Shown: positions 4,650 through 14,011 of the stretch, piece by piece | Position numbering within the stretch: position 1 is the first letter of the stretch | Layout: every line of letters starts with the position of its first letter | Origin: Gemmatimonadota bacterium | GTDB taxonomy: Bacteria > ARS69 | Direction of reading: 5' to 3' | Length of the DNA: 42,344 nucleotides | NCBI GenBank assembly: GCA_030747075.1 | Contig: JASLLL010000025.1 | Span: 1 to 42,344, forward strand | Made by a program: the position numbers and the translations under genes | The notes under the pieces: generated by a model | Seen by the model: only the letters and a program-made list of their open reading frames with translations | The model's database searches: none | Told to the model about the DNA's origin: nothing

Positions 4650-5551
4650 CAGCGCCCCCCCGGGGTGTCGGCGGAGAACTGCTCCAGGCAGGCGGCCAGG
4701 AGTTGCGAGAATCGCTCCTTGCGGGACTGCATGACTTCGATGACTTCCTCGTGATTCACCTCGCGTCCGGGCACGACACCCGGCGCCATATTCGTCACAC
4801 AGGCGAAGGCCACCGCATCCATTCCGAGCGCGGTCGCTGAAATCAGCTCCGGCGCGGTCGACATGCTCACGACATCCGCGCCAAAGGTGCGCGCCATCCG
4901 AACCTCGGCCGGAGTCTCGTAGGACGGACCCTTCGATGAGAAAAGCACGCCCGTGCGAAGCGGTATCCCCACGCTCTCGGCGGCGCTCGACACCCGTTCC
5001 AGAAGACGCGGTGAGACGCGCGCCGGGCTGCCGAACGCGCCGGGCGATCCGCGAAGGGGGCTGTCCAGCATGAAGTTCACAAAGTCGTGAATCCGCACCA
5101 GATCACCCACGCGATAACCCGGATTCACGCCGCCTGCCGCGCAGGTCACCACGAGATCCCGAACGCCCAGCCCGTGCAGGACACCCACGGTCTCCCCGAT
5201 TCGTCGGAGACTGTGTCCTTCGTAGTGGTGGAGCCGGCCCTGCATCGCAAGGAAATCCCGACCGTTCGACCGTCCGCGCACGAGCCTCCCCGCGTGACCC
5301 GCCACCGTGCTTCGGCCGAAACCGGGGATCTCCTCGTACGGGCACTCCTCCAGTGTCTCCACCGTATCCACGAAGTGACCCCACCCGCTCCCCAGAATGA
5401 ACCCGACGCGCGCGCCGCCAAAGCCGCGATCCGCGAGAAACTCGACGGACTCGCGACTTCCGGGGAAGGGTGGAGTGGTCGTGGGGTTGAGCAATGGAAT
5501 CCGCCTCCTTCCGGCAGGTTCCGGGGACCATACCGCCCCCTCGGTCCTCAT
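4649..5551 (-). CDS. Purine nucleoside phosphorylase, trimeric (class I) type
   Basis: The enzyme cleaves purine nucleosides with phosphate, giving free base and ribose 1-phosphate for purine salvage. Family marks in the 300-residue protein include the phosphate loop GFILGSGWG, the HHYEGHS motif, TCAAGGVNPGYRVGDLV, SSKGPSYETPAE and the Asn-containing base-binding stretch VAFACVTNMAPG. These belong to the low-molecular-mass PNP group (PunA/mammalian PNP type). The ATG at 5551 overlaps the tsaB stop (ATGA). About 25 residues precede the conserved core, so a slightly later start is possible. The base preference (guanine/hypoxanthine or methylthioadenosine) is not certain, although the context does not suggest methionine salvage. 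Confidence 0.92.
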   Translation of the reverse strand: MRTEGAVWSPEPAGRRRIPLLNPTTTPPFPGSRESVEFLADRGFGGARVGFILGSGWGHFVDTVETLEECPYEEIPGFGRSTVAGHAGRLVRGRSNGRDFLAMQGRLHHYEGHSLRRIGETVGVLHGLGVRDLVVTCAAGGVNPGYRVGDLVRIHDFVNFMLDSPLRGSPGAFGSPARVSPRLLERVSSAAESVGIPLRTGVLFSSKGPSYETPAEVRMARTFGADVVSMSTAPELISATALGMDAVAFACVTNMAPGVVPGREVNHEEVIEVMQSRKERFSQLLAACLEQFSADTPGGR

Positions 5552-6282
5552 GGTACCTCTGTCGACCCGGATTCGGTTTCTTTCCGCTGTTCCCTGCGGA
5601 TCTCAGCGTCCGTCTTTCGCAGGTAAACTGGCTCTACGGACGCAGAATCCGCCATTTCTCCGGATTTCGCCTTCCGTATGGCTGCCCGAAGGACCGCGGC
5701 GGCACGCGTTCTCGCCAGTTCCGGAGGGGCGACCCAGCCGGATTCCGCACCGAAGAGAGGCCGGAGAAGCGGCGTGCCGTCCCCGCAGAGGATCCCGCCG
5801 GGCGTCGCGGCCGACGAGGTGGCCCCCAAGAGCGCAAGAAGTGCCACGGGCGAGACGGCCTCCGGCCCCCACGCAAGAACAGGCGCGTCTCCCGCATCCG
5901 CCGCGCGATAGAGCGCCGCATAGACTTCGCCCCGTCGCGCATCCACCGAGGGGAGAATCAGCGTTCCCGGCAAAGCCCCCTCGGACGCGGACTCCGCGAT
6001 CCCCTCCAGCGTTCCCACCGGGACGACCGGAATGCCGCGCGCCAGCGCCAGCCCCTGAGCCGCGGCAATCCCGATACGGATGCCGGTGAACGATCCCGGG
6101 CCGGTCGACACCGCCACAGCGTCCAGGTCGGCAGGCGACACGCCGGATTCCGCGAGAAGCGCAAAGAGCCCCGCCACCGCACCCTCGCCCCGGAGGTCCA
6201 CCTCCCGATCGCGGACCTTGCCTCCGGCTTTCAGCGCGACGCTTCCGGCAGGCGTGGTCGTCTCCAGCGCGGCAATGTTCAT
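5548..6282 (-). CDS. tsaB: tRNA t6A biosynthesis protein TsaB
   Basis: TsaB is the ASKHA-fold partner of TsaD in making N6-threonylcarbamoyladenosine at position 37 of ANN-decoding tRNAs. The 244-residue protein starts MNIAALETT, has the TsaB signature STGPGSFTGIRIG and the PSVDARRGEVYAALY segment, and ends in a less conserved tail. The start at 6282 was preferred over an upstream in-frame start because it overlaps the tsaE stop (ATGA) and matches the conserved N-terminus. Adjacency to tsaE supports the call. tsaD and tsaC are not in the window. Confidence 0.95.
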   Translation of the reverse strand: MNIAALETTTPAGSVALKAGGKVRDREVDLRGEGAVAGLFALLAESGVSPADLDAVAVSTGPGSFTGIRIGIAAAQGLALARGIPVVPVGTLEGIAESASEGALPGTLILPSVDARRGEVYAALYRAADAGDAPVLAWGPEAVSPVALLALLGATSSAATPGGILCGDGTPLLRPLFGAESGWVAPPELARTRAAAVLRAAIRKAKSGEMADSASVEPVYLRKTDAEIRREQRKETESGSTEVP

Positions 6283-6758
6283 AGCTCGCCTCCCTCCAGC
6301 GCCCGGATGTGCACTCCCGCCGGAAGCAGGATCCGGATCCGTCGCGATTCCCCGTCCGACTCCAAGCGTATCCGCACCGTATCGGGCGGCAGCGCGGGAA
6401 GCACGCGGTCCCCCCACTCCAGCAACACCAGCGTCTCTCCGTCGAGCAGTTCCGAGAACCCCAGCGCGTCCAGTTCCCCGGGCCCGTCAAGGCGAAAGCA
6501 GTCCATGTGCACGACCCGGCGGCCATCCGCCGCTTCATGGATGTTCTGGAGCGTGTAGGTGGGGCTCGTGACTTCCGTCTCCACACCGGCCCCCGCGCAG
6601 ATCCCCCGGGCAAGCACCGTCTTTCCTGAACCGAGCGCCCCCTCCAGCGAGAGTACCGCCCCATTCGGAAGCGTCCGGCCCAACGCCGCGCCGACGGCAT
6701 GCGTCTCCTCCGCCGACCCGGTTCGGATGGCCAGCGCGCGCGGAGCGGACTGGGTCAT
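6279..6758 (-). CDS. tsaE: tRNA t6A biosynthesis ATPase TsaE
   Basis: TsaE is the small P-loop ATPase that works with TsaB and TsaD in forming t6A on tRNA. From the ATG at 6758 it has 159 residues, typical for the family, with the P-loop GALGSGKT (40-47), TSPTYTLQNIHE and the conserved VHMDCFRLDGPGELDALGF and VLLEWGDRV segments. The chosen start overlaps the stop of the PorX-like gene (ATGA). A longer in-frame reading upstream would only add sequence lying inside that gene. It is directly followed by tsaB. Confidence 0.95.
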   Translation of the reverse strand: MTQSAPRALAIRTGSAEETHAVGAALGRTLPNGAVLSLEGALGSGKTVLARGICAGAGVETEVTSPTYTLQNIHEAADGRRVVHMDCFRLDGPGELDALGFSELLDGETLVLLEWGDRVLPALPPDTVRIRLESDGESRRIRILLPAGVHIRALEGGEL

Positions 6759-8323
6759 CGCGGGTTCATCACTGCGACGGGGAGAACCATCTCTTCCAGT
6801 GAGATCCCGCCATGCTGGAAGCTCCCGCGGAACTGGCGCTCGTACTCGTGGAACTTCGTCGGGTAGACGAAGTAGTAGTTCTCCCGCGCGATGATGTAGT
6901 GCGTCCCGAGACCCATCGACGGCAGTTGGTAGGCTTCCGGGTCCTTGATGTGGAGCGCGTGCTTGGTATCGCACCCGAGGTTGCTCCCGATCTTGAACCG
7001 CAGATTCGTCGTGGTGTCCCGGTTTCCCTGCACCATCGAAGCGTGCCTTCCGATAATGGAGCCATGATCCGTGGTCACGACCACGGTGGCATCCTGCCGG
7101 GACACGGCCTTCAGAATCTCAAAGAGCGCCGAGTGCTTGAACCAGGCCATTGCAAGCGATCGGAACGCGGCTTCGTCCGGTGCCACCTCCCGGAGCAGGT
7201 CGGAGTCCGACCTGCCATGCGAGAGAATGTCGATGAAGTTGAACACCATGGACACGAGCGGCAGCGAATACAACCCGGAGAGACCTTTTCGAAGGTTGTT
7301 GGCGTCCGCGCGCGTCACCACCTTCACATACTTCGACGGCACGCCCGGGGCCGCGCCCAGCCTCTTCAGTTGTGCGTCGAGCAACGCGTGTTCATGTCTG
7401 TTCAGGCTCGTCTCGTCATCACCGGGCATGGCCCAGAGTTCCGGGTGCTTCCTGGCAATCTGAAGCGGATGCAGCCCGGAGAAGATGGCGTTCCGCGAAA
7501 ACGGAGTGGCGGTCGGCAGAATGGAGAAGTAGTGATGCCGCCGGATGTCGAAGAACGGTTCCAGAAGCTGCTCCATGGCAACCCACTGATCCAGCCGAAG
7601 ACAGTCGAGAACGATGAAGTACACCTTGCGCTTCTTCCGGAGGAGCGGCGCCACGAACTTCCGAACGATATCCACCGAGAGCGTCGGCCGGTCCGACGGA
7701 TCCGCAGAGATCCACCCGGCATAGTGGGACGCCACAAACCGCGAGAACTCAACATTGGCTTCATGCTTGGCGTCTTCATGCGTCTGCAGAAGTCCGGCGT
7801 CCCGGAATGAGTCCAGCCGAAGATCCCAGTCCGCGAGCTTCCTGTGCGTTTCCAGCCAGACATCCGGAGACTTTTCGCCTTCTCGGAGATTCCGGAGCAG
7901 GGTGAACTCCTCCACATAGTCCCGCATCACGCCGGATTCGCGAATGCGCGCGCCATCCAGAAGGCGGCGGCAGGCGGTGAACACCTGAAGCGGATTGACG
8001 GGCTTGACGAGGTAGTTGTCGATCTCGCGCCGGATGGCCGCATCCGCAAGGTCTTCGTCCTCCGACTTGGTCACCATGATGACGGGAACGCTCGGGTCCA
8101 CGGCCTTGATTCCCTGAAGCGTCTCCAGGCCGTCGATGCCGGGCATCATCTCGTCCAGTATCACGAGATCGAAACGGCGACCCTCCTTCGCGACCAGATA
8201 GACCGCATCCTCGCCGTTGGAGACCCCCTCGACGGCAAACCCCCGATCCTCCAGCATCTTCACATGAGGACGCAGCAGGTCGATTTCGTCGTCGGCCCAG
8301 AGAATGGTCTTGCGCGGTTCCAG
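6755..8323 (-). CDS. porX: PorX-like response regulator with PglZ domain
   Basis: The N-terminus is a CheY-like receiver (KTILWADDEIDLLRP, phosphoacceptor Asp in LVILDEMMPG, conserved Lys in NYLVKPVNP). A linker and a large PglZ/alkaline-phosphatase-fold domain follow, with VLDCLRLDQW, LPTATPFSRNAIFSG and the metal-binding TTDHGSIIGRH. This is the architecture of PorX, which in Bacteroidota controls type IX secretion. The start is not obvious. The first permissible codon in frame is GTG at 8488, but that would place 133 bases inside the kinase gene. A CTG at 8323 has GAGG five bases upstream and gives 522 residues with the acceptor Asp at about 57, close to known PorX. I used 8323 as an inference. 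An ATGA overlap couples it to tsaE. Confidence 0.88.
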   Translation of the reverse strand: MEPRKTILWADDEIDLLRPHVKMLEDRGFAVEGVSNGEDAVYLVAKEGRRFDLVILDEMMPGIDGLETLQGIKAVDPSVPVIMVTKSEDEDLADAAIRREIDNYLVKPVNPLQVFTACRRLLDGARIRESGVMRDYVEEFTLLRNLREGEKSPDVWLETHRKLADWDLRLDSFRDAGLLQTHEDAKHEANVEFSRFVASHYAGWISADPSDRPTLSVDIVRKFVAPLLRKKRKVYFIVLDCLRLDQWVAMEQLLEPFFDIRRHHYFSILPTATPFSRNAIFSGLHPLQIARKHPELWAMPGDDETSLNRHEHALLDAQLKRLGAAPGVPSKYVKVVTRADANNLRKGLSGLYSLPLVSMVFNFIDILSHGRSDSDLLREVAPDEAAFRSLAMAWFKHSALFEILKAVSRQDATVVVTTDHGSIIGRHASMVQGNRDTTTNLRFKIGSNLGCDTKHALHIKDPEAYQLPSMGLGTHYIIARENYYFVYPTKFHEYERQFRGSFQHGGISLEEMVLPVAVMNPR

Positions 8324-8352: not shown

Positions 8353-9609
8353 TCAGGCGGAATGCCCGCCCGCGGGCAGTTCCACCGAGAACACGGTACT
8401 GACGCCCCCCTTGCTGTGCAACAGGCGGAGTTTCCCGCCATGGTATTCCTCGACAATCCGTCGCGCCAGGGCCAGGCCGAGTCCCCACCCCTTTCGCCTT
8501 GTGGTAAACCCCGCATCGAACACGCGTCGCTGGATCGACTCGGGAACGCCCGGACCATTGTCCTCCACCAGAATCCGAACGCCCGCGGCGGTCCTTTCGG
8601 TCCGAACCGTCACGCGACCATCTCCCTCGCCCCGCGCCAGTGAGTCGAGCGAGTTCTTCACGAGGTTCTCCACGGTCCAGGAGAGCAGTTCCGGATCGGT
8701 CGCGACATTCCCGACCTCTCCAAGATCCTTCACAATCTCCATGCGGCGGCTTCGGGTGGGCACACGACGCCCGAGATAGTCCACCACCTGCGACACGATG
8801 GGGTCGACCTCGTGGGGCTCCAGCTTCGGAGACGACCCGATTCGCTCGAAGCGTTCCGCAATCTTCGTCAGGCGGGAAATGTCGCGGCGCATCTCCATCA
8901 GCGTGGAATCGTCAACGGGGCGCTCCTTCTCCGCCTCCAGAAGATCCACCCAGCCCATGAGCGACGAGATGGGCGTCCCGAGTTGGTGGGCCGTCTCTCT
9001 GGCCATGCCGACCCAGATGCTGCGCTTCTCGCTCCAGCGAATGGACCGCAACCCGAGGTAGGCGAAGATCAAGAGAAACGCCCCAATCCCGATCTGGATG
9101 ATCGGCATCAGACGAAGCTGCGCTACCAGCGGGGAGTTCCCGTAATGGATGTGCCCGGAAACCTGGCCGGTCTCGGAATGCACCATCGGGATGGGGGTAT
9201 GCTCCGTGTCCATTTTCCACGCCAGGCCGAGGAGGGTGGATACCGGCCCGCTGGGCGGATTGGACGGGTCTGTCGTTGCGAACACTCCAAAGGGCACGGC
9301 ATCCGAAGGCACCTCCGTGCCTTTCCACGCCCACGGCACGCCTCGACGATCCGTGACAACAATGGGGAAGTCCACCTGCTCCATCAGTTCGACGAAGATA
9401 CCGCGCACATCCCGATCTTCGGAGGCCGTGAGCGTCGCGGATGCGGCAAATCGGGCGAACACATCCGTGAAGAGAATCGTCTGCTGTTCAAGACGGCCCG
9501 CAATGCGGCTGGTAAAGAAGAGCGACCCAAGCGCAAGGGCCAACATTCCGAGGAAAGGAAGATTCCTCGTCAGCACCGCTGAAGCCGGAAGAAACCGTGG
9601 TCGTGTCAT
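8353..9609 (-). CDS. porY: PorY-like membrane sensor histidine kinase
   Basis: The ATG at 9609 is preceded by GGGAG and gives 418 residues. Two membrane segments (about 13-33 and 166-187) flank a sensor region of about 130 residues outside the membrane. The kinase core has the phosphoacceptor His208 in ARETAHQLGTP, the N box NLVKNSLDSL, the G1 box VEDNGPGVPE, the F box FDAGFTT and the G2 box KGWGLGLALA. It lies directly upstream of, and partly overlaps the start region of, the PorX-like gene. They are therefore likely a cognate pair, like PorY-PorX, although in some Bacteroidota those genes are unlinked. The ligand is unknown. An in-frame start 75 bases upstream was rejected because it runs into the HemC-like gene. 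Confidence 0.88.
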   Translation of the reverse strand: MTRPRFLPASAVLTRNLPFLGMLALALGSLFFTSRIAGRLEQQTILFTDVFARFAASATLTASEDRDVRGIFVELMEQVDFPIVVTDRRGVPWAWKGTEVPSDAVPFGVFATTDPSNPPSGPVSTLLGLAWKMDTEHTPIPMVHSETGQVSGHIHYGNSPLVAQLRLMPIIQIGIGAFLLIFAYLGLRSIRWSEKRSIWVGMARETAHQLGTPISSLMGWVDLLEAEKERPVDDSTLMEMRRDISRLTKIAERFERIGSSPKLEPHEVDPIVSQVVDYLGRRVPTRSRRMEIVKDLGEVGNVATDPELLSWTVENLVKNSLDSLARGEGDGRVTVRTERTAAGVRILVEDNGPGVPESIQRRVFDAGFTTRRKGWGLGLALARRIVEEYHGGKLRLLHSKGGVSTVFSVELPAGGHSA

Positions 9610-9628: not shown

Positions 9629-10507
9629 TCACCGGTAACTGGCGAGGTAGTCCCGGGCGCCTTCCCCGACGAAGAGTTTCGCAAGCCGGATGCCCAGTCC
9701 CTCTGCTTCGGTAAGCTCCCCTTCGAGTTCGTCGCGCATGACCGCCCCGGACACGGTGTCGGCCAGAAGCCCTCTCAACACAAGGCCGTCCTCTCCCTGT
9801 TCGCCATGAACCGCCACCGGGTCCGACATACGCACATCCAGTTCACGCAGGAAGGCCCGTTCCGCCAGAACGATGTTCCGTGTGGTCTCGTCATCCAGAA
9901 GGGCGGCCACCTCCCGGGTCTTCGCGTCTCCTTCGCGCACAAGAACGGCAAAGCTCCCCTGCCCCGCCGCGGGGAGAATGATCTCGGGTGTGAATACTTC
10001 CGCAACCATCCCTTCCCAGCGCAGCGTCTCGACATCCTCGGCGGCCACGACGAAGGCCGAGACCTCTCCGGCCTCCAGTTGCTGCATCAGTCGATCCACC
10101 GTTCCCTCCACCTGCCGGATCTCCAGATTCCCGAGAAACCTGCCCAACTGCACCGCCACGCGGGCGGACTCCACGCCCACCACTGTGGCATCCTGCAGAT
10201 CCTCCAGAAGGTCCCCGTCCCGGGAGACAAGAACATCGAACGGGTCCACCCGAGTCGTACACGCCGCAAGCTCCACACCATCCACCGGGCGGATGGGAAG
10301 TTCCCGCGCGCCTCGAATGTGCATGTCGATCATCCCGGCCGCGAGGGCGTCCTGAATGGGGTGGTCCTCCCCGTTCGCACCGGGGAAGTCGCTGAACTCA
10401 AACTGCACGCCGGCTTCTTCCGCAAGACGACCCAGGACAATCGCGGTCTGGGCACGGCAGAACTCCGTCCCCCGGCATCCGACACGAATCACTCGTTTCT
10501 CGCTCAA
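9629..10507 (-). CDS. HemC-like protein lacking key catalytic residues
   Basis: The 292-residue protein follows the fold order of porphobilinogen deaminase (hydroxymethylbilane synthase), with an N-terminal RVGCRGTEF-AQ motif, EIILPAAGQGSFAVLV and AERAFLREL. Residues required for catalysis are changed. The cofactor-binding cysteine of the usual GGCQVP is Met227 (DVRMSDP). The catalytic Asp of HSxKDVP is Glu69 (RGARELP). The GTSSLRR arginine pair is GVESARV. The GGKGLF loop is missing. The dipyrromethane cofactor should not attach, so the classical reaction is unlikely. The start is TTG at 10507 with GGAG upstream, and a GTG a few codons inside is an alternative. It ends 19 bases before the PorY-like gene. 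It could be a regulatory or substrate-binding derivative. The altered residues are visible, but the lost activity is inferred. Confidence 0.75.
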   Translation of the reverse strand: MSEKRVIRVGCRGTEFCRAQTAIVLGRLAEEAGVQFEFSDFPGANGEDHPIQDALAAGMIDMHIRGARELPIRPVDGVELAACTTRVDPFDVLVSRDGDLLEDLQDATVVGVESARVAVQLGRFLGNLEIRQVEGTVDRLMQQLEAGEVSAFVVAAEDVETLRWEGMVAEVFTPEIILPAAGQGSFAVLVREGDAKTREVAALLDDETTRNIVLAERAFLRELDVRMSDPVAVHGEQGEDGLVLRGLLADTVSGAVMRDELEGELTEAEGLGIRLAKLFVGEGARDYLASYR

Positions 10508-10557: not shown

Positions 10558-10580
10558 CTCTGATTCGCAGGCTATCAGAG
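10558..10580. promoter_or_regulatory. Inverted repeat over predicted promoter
   Basis: CTCTGAT (10558-10564) and ATCAGAG (10574-10580) form a perfect 7-base inverted repeat with a 9-base centre. It covers the predicted -10 element of the promoter for the HemC-like/porYX operon. It could be an operator, or the stem of a terminator for the WecA-like gene that ends at 10595. No T-run follows on the minus strand. Confidence 0.35.
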
Positions 10581-10598
10581 CGTTTCGCAAGCGGTCAA
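10569..10598 (-). promoter_or_regulatory. Predicted sigma-70 promoter of the HemC-like/porYX operon
   Basis: On the minus strand TTGACC (10593-10598) and TAGCCT (10569-10574) are separated by 18 bases. The expected start of transcription is about 55 bases upstream of the TTG start codon. The -35 element overlaps the stop codon of the preceding gene. Confidence 0.4.
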
Positions 10599-11650
10599 GG
10601 CGTGGCCGGAGGGGCTTCCCCGGAGGCGCTCTCCGGAACGGGAGCCCGACGACACAAGAACAAGCCGAACCCGATGTAGGAGAACAGGACCGCCGCGGAG
10701 AGCGTCACCGTGGCCGGATCGAAGGCCAACGCGTCGAGAAGCACAGCCACGGCACAGGACAGGAGACACACGCCGTATATGGTCAGCGCAGTGGCGCGCG
10801 GCCCGGCGAGAATGCGGCACAGACGGTGGCTGGAGTGATCCCGGCCGCCCTGCGTCAGGCTTTGCCCCCGCGCGTATCGGGTCACGCTGACCAGCGTAAT
10901 GTCGAACACGGGATACGACAAAACCAGAACGGGTACAAGCAAGGCCGCCGGAGTTTCCGCGCCCCAGGCAATAATCCATCCGGAACACCCCAGCGCATAC
11001 CCGAGAAAGAGGCTCCCCCCGTCCCCGAGGAAAATCGACGCGGGACTGAAGTTGTAGCGCACAAACCCGATAGACGCCCCACAGAGGGCCGCCGCACCGA
11101 TCGCAATCCACGGCCTTCCCATCGACATGCCGAGAAAGACAAACGCAAGTGCCGCGACCGCGGTGATCCCGGGGGAGACACCATCCATGTTGTCGAGGAA
11201 GTTCATCGCGTTCGTGAGGCCGACAATCCAGATGAGGGACAGCACAATCCAGATCGGCGTGGCAAAGAAGGCGTCGCCCGGGCCTCCGCTGGCAAGGAAG
11301 ATCACTGCGGCGACCACCTGTCCCAGAAGCTTCGGAAACCAGGACAGATTCACCCGATCATCCACCACACCCATCGTGGATACGAGAAGCGCCCCCACGA
11401 CGAATCCCAGAAAGCGGCTCCCCGGCGGATCGCCCAGGAGCGCCCATCCGGCGAGTCCTCCCGCAAGGAACCCGGCGACGACCGCGACGCCTCCCAGGAG
11501 TGGGGTCGCACGCTCGTGAACACCACGGCCGGAGGGATATGCCAGAAAATCGGTCGCGATCGCCACGCGGCGAGCAACGGGCGTCGCGAGAAGAGCCCCG
11601 ACCAGCCCTCCGACCAGTGCGCCGAAAACCGGAATCACGCGCACCCCCAA
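10595..11650 (-). CDS. WecA/TagO-type undecaprenyl-phosphate sugar-1-phosphate transferase
   Basis: This polytopic inner-membrane enzyme transfers a sugar 1-phosphate, usually GlcNAc-1-P, to undecaprenyl phosphate and so starts surface glycan assembly. The 351-residue protein has about ten hydrophobic segments and the PNPT family motifs: VDDR (D97, D98), NAMNFLDNMDG (147-157), SIFLGDGGSLFLG and the cytoplasmic HSSHRL loop. It lies in a minus-strand run after an epimerase/dehydratase, which fits polysaccharide synthesis. The start codon is uncertain: TTG at 11650, or GTG at 11644 or 11638, the last with GGGGG upstream. The sugar specificity cannot be read from the motifs. Confidence 0.9.
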   Translation of the reverse strand: MGVRVIPVFGALVGGLVGALLATPVARRVAIATDFLAYPSGRGVHERATPLLGGVAVVAGFLAGGLAGWALLGDPPGSRFLGFVVGALLVSTMGVVDDRVNLSWFPKLLGQVVAAVIFLASGGPGDAFFATPIWIVLSLIWIVGLTNAMNFLDNMDGVSPGITAVAALAFVFLGMSMGRPWIAIGAAALCGASIGFVRYNFSPASIFLGDGGSLFLGYALGCSGWIIAWGAETPAALLVPVLVLSYPVFDITLVSVTRYARGQSLTQGGRDHSSHRLCRILAGPRATALTIYGVCLLSCAVAVLLDALAFDPATVTLSAAVLFSYIGFGLFLCRRAPVPESASGEAPPATP

Positions 11651-11701: not shown

Positions 11702-12682
11702 TCAGAGGACCGCGACGGACTCTGCGCCCCGGAACGATTCAATGACTCCCAGCAGTATGTCGTCCAGCGATCTCGTCGGGCGGTACCCGATGTACTCGCC
11801 GATCTTCACCAGTGAGGGGACGCGCCGACGCATATCCTCGAATCCGGCGGAGAACGCCTGGTCGTAGGGAATCAGTTCGATGGGTGAGTCGCTGTCCGTG
11901 AGTTTCTTCACTCGTTCGGCAAGCTGCAAGATGGTCACTTCTTCGTCGTTCCCCAGATTGAAAATCTGGCCCCATGCGCGGTCGCAGTCGATCAGAGAGA
12001 CCACACCCTCCACAACATCGAAGACCGAACCGAAACAGCGGGACTGCTGTCCGTCACCGTGAACAGAGATGGGATCCCCGGCAAGGGCCGCACGAACAAA
12101 GCGCGGCACAACCATTCCATAACGCCCGCGCTGCCGGGGACCGCAGGTGTTGAAGCAACGCACGATCTGGACGGGAAGGTCTCGCTCGCGGTGGTAAGCC
12201 AGTGCGAGAATCTCATCGACCGCCTTGGCTGTAGAGTAACTCCAGCGCTGAACCGTGGTCGACCCGAGGACCCGGTCGGAGTCCTCCTTGAAGGGAACGA
12301 CGGCGGCCTTTCCGTAGATCTCCGAGGTCGAGAAGAGGATCACCCGGGTCTCGTGGCGGTCCGCCGATTCCAGGACATTCTCGGTGCCCCGGATGTTGAC
12401 CCGCATGGACTGCAACGGATGCTCGATGACATACTTCACGCCTACCGCCGCCGCCAGATGGACGACCAGGTCGGAGTCGCGAATCAGTTCATCGAGAACA
12501 TCTGCGCTCAGCACCGTGTCCACGACTGTACGGACGGCGCCGGTCTCTTCATGCTGAGACAGGTTCTCCAGGCGGCCGGTGGAGAGATCGTCCAGAACGA
12601 CCACCTGATCCCCACGGGCCACCAGAAGATCGACCAGGTGCGAGCCGATGAAGCCGGCTCCCCCGGTGACGAGTACGCGCAT
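11702..12682 (-). CDS. NAD-dependent nucleotide-sugar epimerase/dehydratase
   Basis: This is an extended short-chain dehydrogenase of 326 residues with the NAD-binding GGAGFIGS near the N-terminus, FSTSEIYG, the catalytic YSTAK and RCFNTCGPRQ. ATG at 12682 was chosen because it begins the Rossmann strand (MRVLVTGG) and has a GGGTGGGG stretch upstream. Starts farther upstream add only non-conserved sequence. It is most like UDP-glucose/UDP-glucuronate 4-epimerases or related sugar dehydratases. Substrate and product are not determined. It lies 51 bases from the WecA-like gene and 124 bases after the UDP-glucuronate decarboxylase gene. Confidence 0.88.
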   Translation of the reverse strand: MRVLVTGGAGFIGSHLVDLLVARGDQVVVLDDLSTGRLENLSQHEETGAVRTVVDTVLSADVLDELIRDSDLVVHLAAAVGVKYVIEHPLQSMRVNIRGTENVLESADRHETRVILFSTSEIYGKAAVVPFKEDSDRVLGSTTVQRWSYSTAKAVDEILALAYHRERDLPVQIVRCFNTCGPRQRGRYGMVVPRFVRAALAGDPISVHGDGQQSRCFGSVFDVVEGVVSLIDCDRAWGQIFNLGNDEEVTILQLAERVKKLTDSDSPIELIPYDQAFSAGFEDMRRRVPSLVKIGEYIGYRPTRSLDDILLGVIESFRGAESVAVL

Positions 12683-12806
12683 TCGGTCCCCACCCTTCAT
12701 AAAAAAGTTCAGAATAGAAACAACTACCACTCAGCCCTGTCTGACGCAAGCAGGACCACTCTCCCCCAACCGTCCAAGCCCGACAACCCCACGGAGGCGG
12801 GCCCTG

Positions 12807-13739
12807 TCAGTACCCCTCGTTCCGGAACCACTGGACGGTCTCCGCAAGCCCGTCCGACAGCTCAACCTGCGGCTCCCATCCGAGTTTCGCCTTCGCGGTG
12901 GAAATGTCCGGCTGCCGGATTTTGGGGTCGTCCTCGGGAAGGGGTCTGTTGGTGACCGAAACCCGGGACCCCGTCGCCTCCTTCACGGCCTCCGCAAAGC
13001 CGCGAATGGTCAGTTCATGGGGATTCCCCAGATTCACGGGGTCGTTGAGGTCCGAGAGAAGCAGGCGATAGATGCCCTCGATCAGGTCGGTCACAAAGCA
13101 GAACGATCTCGTCTGCTCCCCGTCCCCGAAGATCGTGAGTGACTCTCCGGCCAGCGCCTGGGTGATGAATGTCGGGACGACCCGGCCGTCCTTCGCACGC
13201 ATCCGCGGACCATAGGTGTTGAAGATCCGAACGATCTTCGTGTCCAGCCCGTGAGACCGATGGTAGGCCATGGTCATGGCCTCACCGAACCTCTTGGCTT
13301 CGTCGTAAACGCCCCGCGGCCCAATGGGGTTCACGTTCCCCCAGTAGTCTTCCTGCTGCGGGTGCACAAGCGGATCCCCGTACACCTCGGAGGAGGACGC
13401 GATCAGAACGCGGGCGCCCTTCTCCCGGGCAAGCCCCAGCACCTTGTGTGTCCCGAGCGCTCCCACCTTGAGCGTCTGGATGGGAAGCTCCAGATAGTCG
13501 ATGGGCGACGCGGGAGACGCAAAGTGCAGAAGCGCATCCAGGTGCCCCGAGAGAAAGATGTACTCCGTGACATCGTGGTGAATGAACTGGAACCGGTCAT
13601 TCCCGGCCAGATGCTCGATGTTGCGGATGTTGCCGGTGATGAGGTTATCCATACCGACCACTTCGTGGTCTTCGGCAAGGAGTCGATCGCACAGGTGCGA
13701 CCCCAAAAACCCGGCCGCGCCGGTCACGAGAATGCGCAT
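12807..13739 (-). CDS. UDP-glucuronate decarboxylase (UDP-xylose synthase)
   Basis: The enzyme converts UDP-glucuronate to UDP-xylose. The 310-residue protein begins [16 protein letters not shown] and has the UXS hallmark [17 protein letters not shown], the YDEAK catalytic Tyr-Lys pair, [10 protein letters not shown] and [15 protein letters not shown], which carries the Arg associated with decarboxylation. ATG at 13739 is preceded by GGGAGGG. The UDP-glucose dehydrogenase at 17271-18656 would provide its substrate. The length matches soluble bacterial UXS enzymes, with no N-terminal membrane anchor. Confidence 0.93.
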
Positions 13740-14011
13740 CCATCCCTCCCATGAGAACCGCACATCCCCGGTGGATGCGGCAGCCAGATAATCCGGCATG
13801 GTAGCCCGGCGCCCGGGCGGACGCTACCCCGCATTTCCACAGGAAAGAATGTGTCGCGATTCGTGAAGCGGGGACGCGAGAAAACACGGGCTTCCCCGGG
13901 CAAGCTGCGGTATGCAGGTTCAGGAGGTGGTCCCTTCCGGCCGATTACTCACCCTGGGGACTTGCGCCCCGGAAACGGGTTCACGGACTGGCCTACAAGG
14001 AGAAGTGCCGT

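Follow-up and report, generated by a model that had tools for sequence, protein, structure and literature searches.

Hydroxymethylbilane synthase (HMBS, porphobilinogen deaminase, HemC) is a textbook single-function enzyme, and we know of no described family of HMBS pseudoenzymes. The window analysed here, a stretch of 42,344 nucleotides from a Gemmatimonadota contig (JASLLL010000025.1), encodes a HemC-like protein beside porY and porX, and the first-pass annotation described this protein as having lost its catalytic residues. The locus raises the question of whether the protein is a working HMBS and, if not, which role it may have at this position.

The HemC-like protein and canonical HemC

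The HemC-like gene lies at 9629..10507 on the minus strand (292 aa, TTG start, stop codon included), in the frame and at the coordinates originally assigned to it. A purine-rich Shine-Dalgarno-like stretch was found 5' of the TTG in the window and likewise before the starts in relatives; the start codon was TTG in the window, G002, G003 and G004, and ATG in G001. The protein matched both HMBS domains above the cut-offs (PF01379, Porphobil_deam, 103.7 bits; PF03900, Porphobil_deamC, 34.8 bits), in agreement with the proposed relationship to porphobilinogen deaminase. Judged by these matches, which are far above chance, it is an HMBS homologue. A sequence search of solved structures with the window protein returned HMBS chains only (best 1pda, 3.9e-29), as did a wider-family profile (best 1pda, 229 bits). 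In the TIGR00212 hemC model the window protein scored 141.2 bits, below the equivalog cut-off of 164, and the three complete relatives scored 163.2, 151.3 and 140.9 bits. No signal peptide was visible in the sequence. The AlphaFold model for the window protein plus three relatives was poor (pLDDT 52.6, pTM 0.36). Foldseek with this model ranked HMBS first, followed by type II periplasmic binding and YhfZ-like proteins, and the list was used solely for the first rank of HMBS.

Residues were compared at E. coli HMBS positions with 30 canonical HemCs, taken from other genomes and the window's own. Rows without a letter at a column were excluded from the counts, and the G001 gene, which is interrupted by Ns, was counted over its first two thirds. 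All four losses named in the first-pass annotation were found in this alignment: the cofactor residue Cys242 is Met227 in the window protein, the catalytic Asp84 is Glu69, the arginine pair R131-R132 is broken (R116-V117), and the GGKGLF loop is absent, the whole 45-62 loop including F62 being deleted. Further changes were H80R, S81G, K83R, T127V, R149E, N151T, R155L, G173D and R176T. Among the pocket arginines, R11 and R131 are kept and R132, R149, R155 and R176 are replaced. In E. coli HMBS the cysteine carries the dipyrromethane cofactor, according to the available parts of two papers (PMC7242693, PMC8561815). It was present in 30/30 canonical HemCs, compared with 0/4 HemC-likes of the window clade and 0/41 of the second phylum described below. 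The four readable window-clade sequences had Met, Leu, Pro and Pro at this position, which is hence unconserved. Glu replaced Asp84 in all five window-clade HemC-likes; this change alone is no proof of inactivity, because the D82E mutant of Bacillus megaterium HMBS is reported as active in the part of PMC8561815 available to us. On the sequence evidence, the missing cysteine and arginines carry more weight against HMBS activity.

Twenty-five columns were invariant among the 30 canonical HemCs. The window protein keeps six of them (R11, Q19, D76, R131, G150 and Q198), and R11, R131, Q19 and Q198 were kept in 5/5 window-clade rows; none of the 25 was kept in at least 90% of the 41 second-phylum HemC-likes. 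The pocket arginines were unconserved in the second phylum, and the pocket residues differed between the two phyla. Two glutamates were near-invariant in the HemC-likes (window numbering): Glu160 in 45/46 vs 4/30 canonical HemCs, and Glu170 in 46/46 vs 10/30.

Two cysteines, C11 and C17, were also observed in a VGCRxxxFC motif (window 10457-10477) in all five window-clade rows. In the second phylum, C11 occurred in 4/41 rows and C17 in 0/41.

The first-pass annotation held that two things together, a heme-making genome devoid of any other, canonical hemC and a measured deaminase activity, would show the window protein to be the working enzyme, and it proposed a search for a second copy. A canonical hemC is present in the same genome on contig C32 (PF01379, 224 bits; hemC model, 257 bits, above the cut-off), clustered with hemD, hemB, hemE and a hemN-like gene that is cut and scores just at the cut-off. 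A canonical HemC copy was also found in G002 and G004, and none was found in G001 and G003, which are 67% and 82% complete. By these assignments, the window HemC-like is not the HMBS of its genome.

In a tree of 104 rows, a branch with an SH-aLRT support of 98 separated all 58 canonical HemCs from all HemC-likes. The tree was a quick, unrooted one with two long rows (can_L027 and deg_L237) and a few identical rows present twice. It fits one old origin of the HemC-like family, with the root unplaced and the branches long. Grouping of the window clade with the canonical HemCs of its phylum was rejected (p-AU 0.0039), and with it an origin by recent duplication of the hemC of that phylum.

Conserved position beside porY-porX

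Scanning the genome contigs with the single window protein returned no relatives, and scanning with alignment A1 returned three; the viral contigs contained no HemC-like. The three complete relatives were 55-59% identical to the window protein, and over six pairs the HemC-like gene gave dN of 0.26-0.36 vs dS of 0.86-1.45. Judged by these rates, the gene is under selection as a protein and is no decaying copy; with the intact frame and dN well below dS, we rejected pseudogene decay.

The HemC-like gene was present in 5/5 genomes of the window's phylum, between wecA and porY-porX. All genes named here are on the minus strand of the window. Immediately upstream lies a WecA/MraY-type transferase gene (10595..11650; PF00953, 107.8 bits), a conserved neighbour, preceded by two genes for NAD-dependent sugar epimerases/dehydratases (11702..12730 and 12807..13799; PF16363/PF01370). 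Downstream lies a gene for a PorY-like membrane histidine kinase (8353..9609), which matched HATPase_c with 73.7 bits, above the cut-off, and HisKA just below it; its start at 9609 is inferred from relatives, and the PorY name is taken from its position beside PorX. The kinase domain was confirmed, and the gene was beside porX in all five genomes. The next gene encodes a PorX response regulator with a PglZ/alkaline-phosphatase-like domain (6755..8308, start provisional; NF052313, 617.1 bits, cut-off 300). It is followed by tsaE, the conserved downstream neighbour of porX (6279..6974, start provisional; PF02367, 113.5 bits), and by a tsaB-type gene (5548..6417; PF00814), which from its size and position we take to be tsaB rather than tsaD. 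The order wecA, HemC-like, porY, porX, tsaE, tsaB was that of the phylum, with sugar epimerases before it where the contig reaches, so that the HemC-like/porY/porX order is indeed kept in relatives (wecA-HemC-like-porY-porX in 5/5 genomes). The type IX marker SprA was also found in all five. In G002 (L033 6246-8294), no stop codon separates wecA from the HemC-like gene and a single open frame runs through both, which may reflect a fusion or a fault of the assembly.

The gene had been described as the head of an operon that continues into porY. The wecA gene, which has the same orientation, stops 87 nt before it, but a promoter-like element, TTGACC-N16-GATAGC (10571..10598, minus strand), lies between the two genes, with the wecA stop codon overlapped by the first hexamer. 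TTGACC was located just 5' of the HemC-like gene, at the end of wecA, in 4/5 genomes of the phylum including the window, compared with about 2% per region in shuffled sequence. A -10-like element followed at similar spacing (GATA in 3/5 genomes, GCTA in G001). A stricter promoter scan, at its own stringency, returned no promoter at this element. The conservation of TTGACC is suggestive only of a promoter at this place, the four genomes being related.

PorX was found in 84 of the 372 genomes surveyed. The HemC-like gene was absent from all 79 PorX loci of this set outside the window's phylum, and we therefore rejected it as a universal partner of PorX. Six of the 79 loci keep wecA upstream of porY-porX, and the slot there is occupied by serS. 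In G368 and G240 (L133 1070-3673, L137 1035-3630), a hemL-like aminotransferase gene followed by serS was observed between wecA and porY, another possible tetrapyrrole gene at this position; on L133 it is assigned to Pfam class III. The names hemL, hemA and UXS are provisional or follow the best BLAST match, and serS, UGDH, DegT, WecA-type, hemB and hemE were confirmed by Pfam or NCBIfam on examples. SprA_N, the mark of the type IX system, was observed in two phyla (L105-L110); the literature, as far as its text was available, assigns this system to Bacteroidetes.

HemC-like genes in a second phylum

A weak copy in G029 led to a second phylum, represented by 80 genomes. PF01379 was matched in 70 of them. 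With the family profile, and among the matches listed (up to six candidates per genome), 68/80 genomes carried a HemC-like without the cysteine, 2/80 only a canonical HemC and 10/80 neither kind. Of the 68 HemC-likes, 67 scored at least 279 bits with this profile and one was partial. The genomes G458, G248, G308, G052, G064, G205 and G266 each gave at least two HemC matches. All 44 family rows of alignment A3 matched the NCBIfam hemC model at E <= 1e-5, and genomes with a HemC-like only may therefore be credited with the heme step. The family is thus a warning against annotation by homology, in that automatic calls may name HemC-likes hydroxymethylbilane synthase.

We read 41 loci from the 68 genomes with a copy, namely 40 chosen regions and L036 (L238 ends at the contig end); three of the 41 were cut by contig ends. 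In all 24 readable loci of f260, f262, f263, f264 and f265, the order HemC-like-serS-porY was found on one strand, with porX where the contig reaches. In the 14 loci of f26 and f261, the HemC-like gene followed DegT or WecA-type surface-sugar genes, and porYX was not adjacent; seven PorX loci of these two families had serS-porY-porX intact without a HemC-like. The upstream gene in most loci read was a WecA-type transferase, a DegT aminotransferase or a UDP-glucose dehydrogenase; in L209, a glutamine cyclotransferase-type gene and no sugar gene adjoined the HemC-like. The most constant neighbour of the HemC-like gene is the sugar block, not porYX. Among the ten genomes without a match, six had a PorX contig that ends too early, G429 lay outside the reading, and three were informative: in G404, G416 and G418, wecA abuts serS and porY-porX is retained, indicating that PorYX can do without the HemC-like protein. 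PorX was found in 75/80 and SprA in 67/80 genomes of this phylum. Because nearly all of them have both, co-occurrence of the HemC-like with PorX or SprA is undiscriminating.

HemB (PF00490) was found in 40/80 second-phylum genomes, and in 0/30 genomes of f260, f262, f263 and f264, its absence being judged by PF00490 alone in genomes of which several are incomplete. No canonical HemC was found in these 30 genomes either. The HemC-like was nevertheless retained in 21 of the 30 (4/4, 15/20, 1/5 and 1/1 for the four families, respectively), and G398, a single contig at 91% completeness, kept it with no HemB found. Porphobilinogen cannot be made by the known route in a cell that lacks HemB, so that the HemC-like protein is unlikely to use it there. 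Porphobilinogen and hydroxymethylbilane are unlikely general ligands, because these HemB-less and HemC-less lineages keep the gene.

Possible functions of the HemC-like family

As described above, the cysteine, four pocket arginines and the loop are lost and a canonical hemC lies elsewhere in the genome, which supports that part of the first-pass annotation that saw a pseudoenzyme-like HemC paralogue. Its other part, recruitment for tetrapyrrole sensing, found less support: lineages without HemB and canonical HemC keep the gene, and in 14/41 second-phylum loci porYX does not adjoin it. The HemC-likes are probably a conserved pseudoenzyme family of HMBS fold with a different role. The likeliest role, although we put it at somewhat under an even chance, is that of a ligand-binding or docking regulator or adaptor for PorYX or for the linked surface-glycan pathway. 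An old, separately conserved, soluble HMBS-fold family without the residue that holds the dipyrromethane cofactor would have retained its two-domain cleft, whose fold is akin to that of periplasmic binding proteins, for the binding of a ligand or for docking. The cytoplasmic protein could then serve as a regulatory input or adaptor for PorY-PorX, the system that controls type IX secretion; the surface-glycan pathway is the alternative target. Two observations speak against a strict PorYX role: the sugar genes adjoin the HemC-like gene more constantly than porYX does, and porY-porX persists without the gene.

The main rival is a new enzyme on the HMBS scaffold, most likely of the surface-glycan/UDP-sugar pathway encoded just upstream, which we consider rather unlikely. 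The WecA-type, DegT or UDP-glucose dehydrogenase gene upstream in most loci, also where porYX is elsewhere, and the single open frame of wecA and the HemC-like in G002 agree with such an enzyme, and the family-specific Glu160 and Glu170 could equally be an active site. However, no known catalytic motif was recognised in the protein, the pocket residues differ between the phyla, and the neighbour in L209 is not a sugar gene.

A tetrapyrrole sensor, with heme or a pyrrole as its ligand and PorY-PorX as the receiver of its signal, is distinctly less probable. The available text of PMC8050853 describes the Porphyromonas gingivalis PorX/PorY system as activated by hemin, with binding of hemin by PorY itself given as undetermined. 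A heme-type ligand is possible because of this response, and by analogy a heme-linked signal is possible in the window's phylum. The conserved R11, R131, Q19 and Q198 of the window clade and the heme pathway of the window's genome are also consistent with a sensor of this kind, but retention of the gene in 21/30 genomes of the families where no HemB and no canonical HemC was found argues against a self-made pyrrole as the general signal, as does the loss of the pocket arginines in the second phylum. Slightly less probable still is a combined reading in which the two-phylum family is a small-molecule sensor or adaptor of PorY-PorX and the protein of the window's phylum may still carry a pyrrole, attached at a new site; such a site is conceivable there because heme is made and C11 and C17 are invariant (5/5).

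It is very unlikely that the gene is a remnant, decaying or carried along by its neighbours, of an old hem cluster that once occupied this block. The hemL-like gene between wecA and serS in G368 and G240, two genomes of another family, and the missing HemC-like in G404, G416 and G418 would suit a relic, but the open frame, dN well below dS, the family-specific invariant residues and retention across two phyla oppose it. A divergent but working HMBS, for which the homology and the active D82E mutant of a true HMBS (PMC8561815, as far as available) could be cited, was rejected as scarcely credible, with Cys242 in 0/45 HemC-like rows vs 30/30 canonical ones, a separate canonical hemC in this genome, and the HemC-like kept where no HemB was found.

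The literature searched, which was judged mainly by title and covered few of the subscription papers, held neither a family of HMBS pseudoenzymes without the cysteine nor a HemC-like partner of PorX/PorY. The family is kept where no HemB or canonical HemC was found, and its role can thus be approached independently of heme synthesis. If the regulator or adaptor reading is right and the protein feeds PorY-PorX, what PorY-PorX senses becomes testable outside Bacteroidota.

Compared with HMBS itself (TIGR00212, PF01379 and PF03900), the window protein is homologous over both domains, but it lacks Cys242 and the 45-62 loop, has Glu for Asp84 and replacements at R132, R149, R155 and R176, and scores below the equivalog cut-off. 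In the structural comparison with the poor model, type II periplasmic binding and YhfZ-like proteins rank directly below HMBS, whereas no sequence match to them was found among solved structures and no signal peptide was visible. PorX is described in the available part of PMC11320123 as a zinc-dependent phosphodiesterase. The genes downstream of the HemC-like in the window, PorX (617 bits) and the PorY-like kinase, resemble the PorX/PorY system of P. gingivalis; porX and porY are far apart in that species, according to the accessible text of PMC8050853, whereas they are adjacent in the window.
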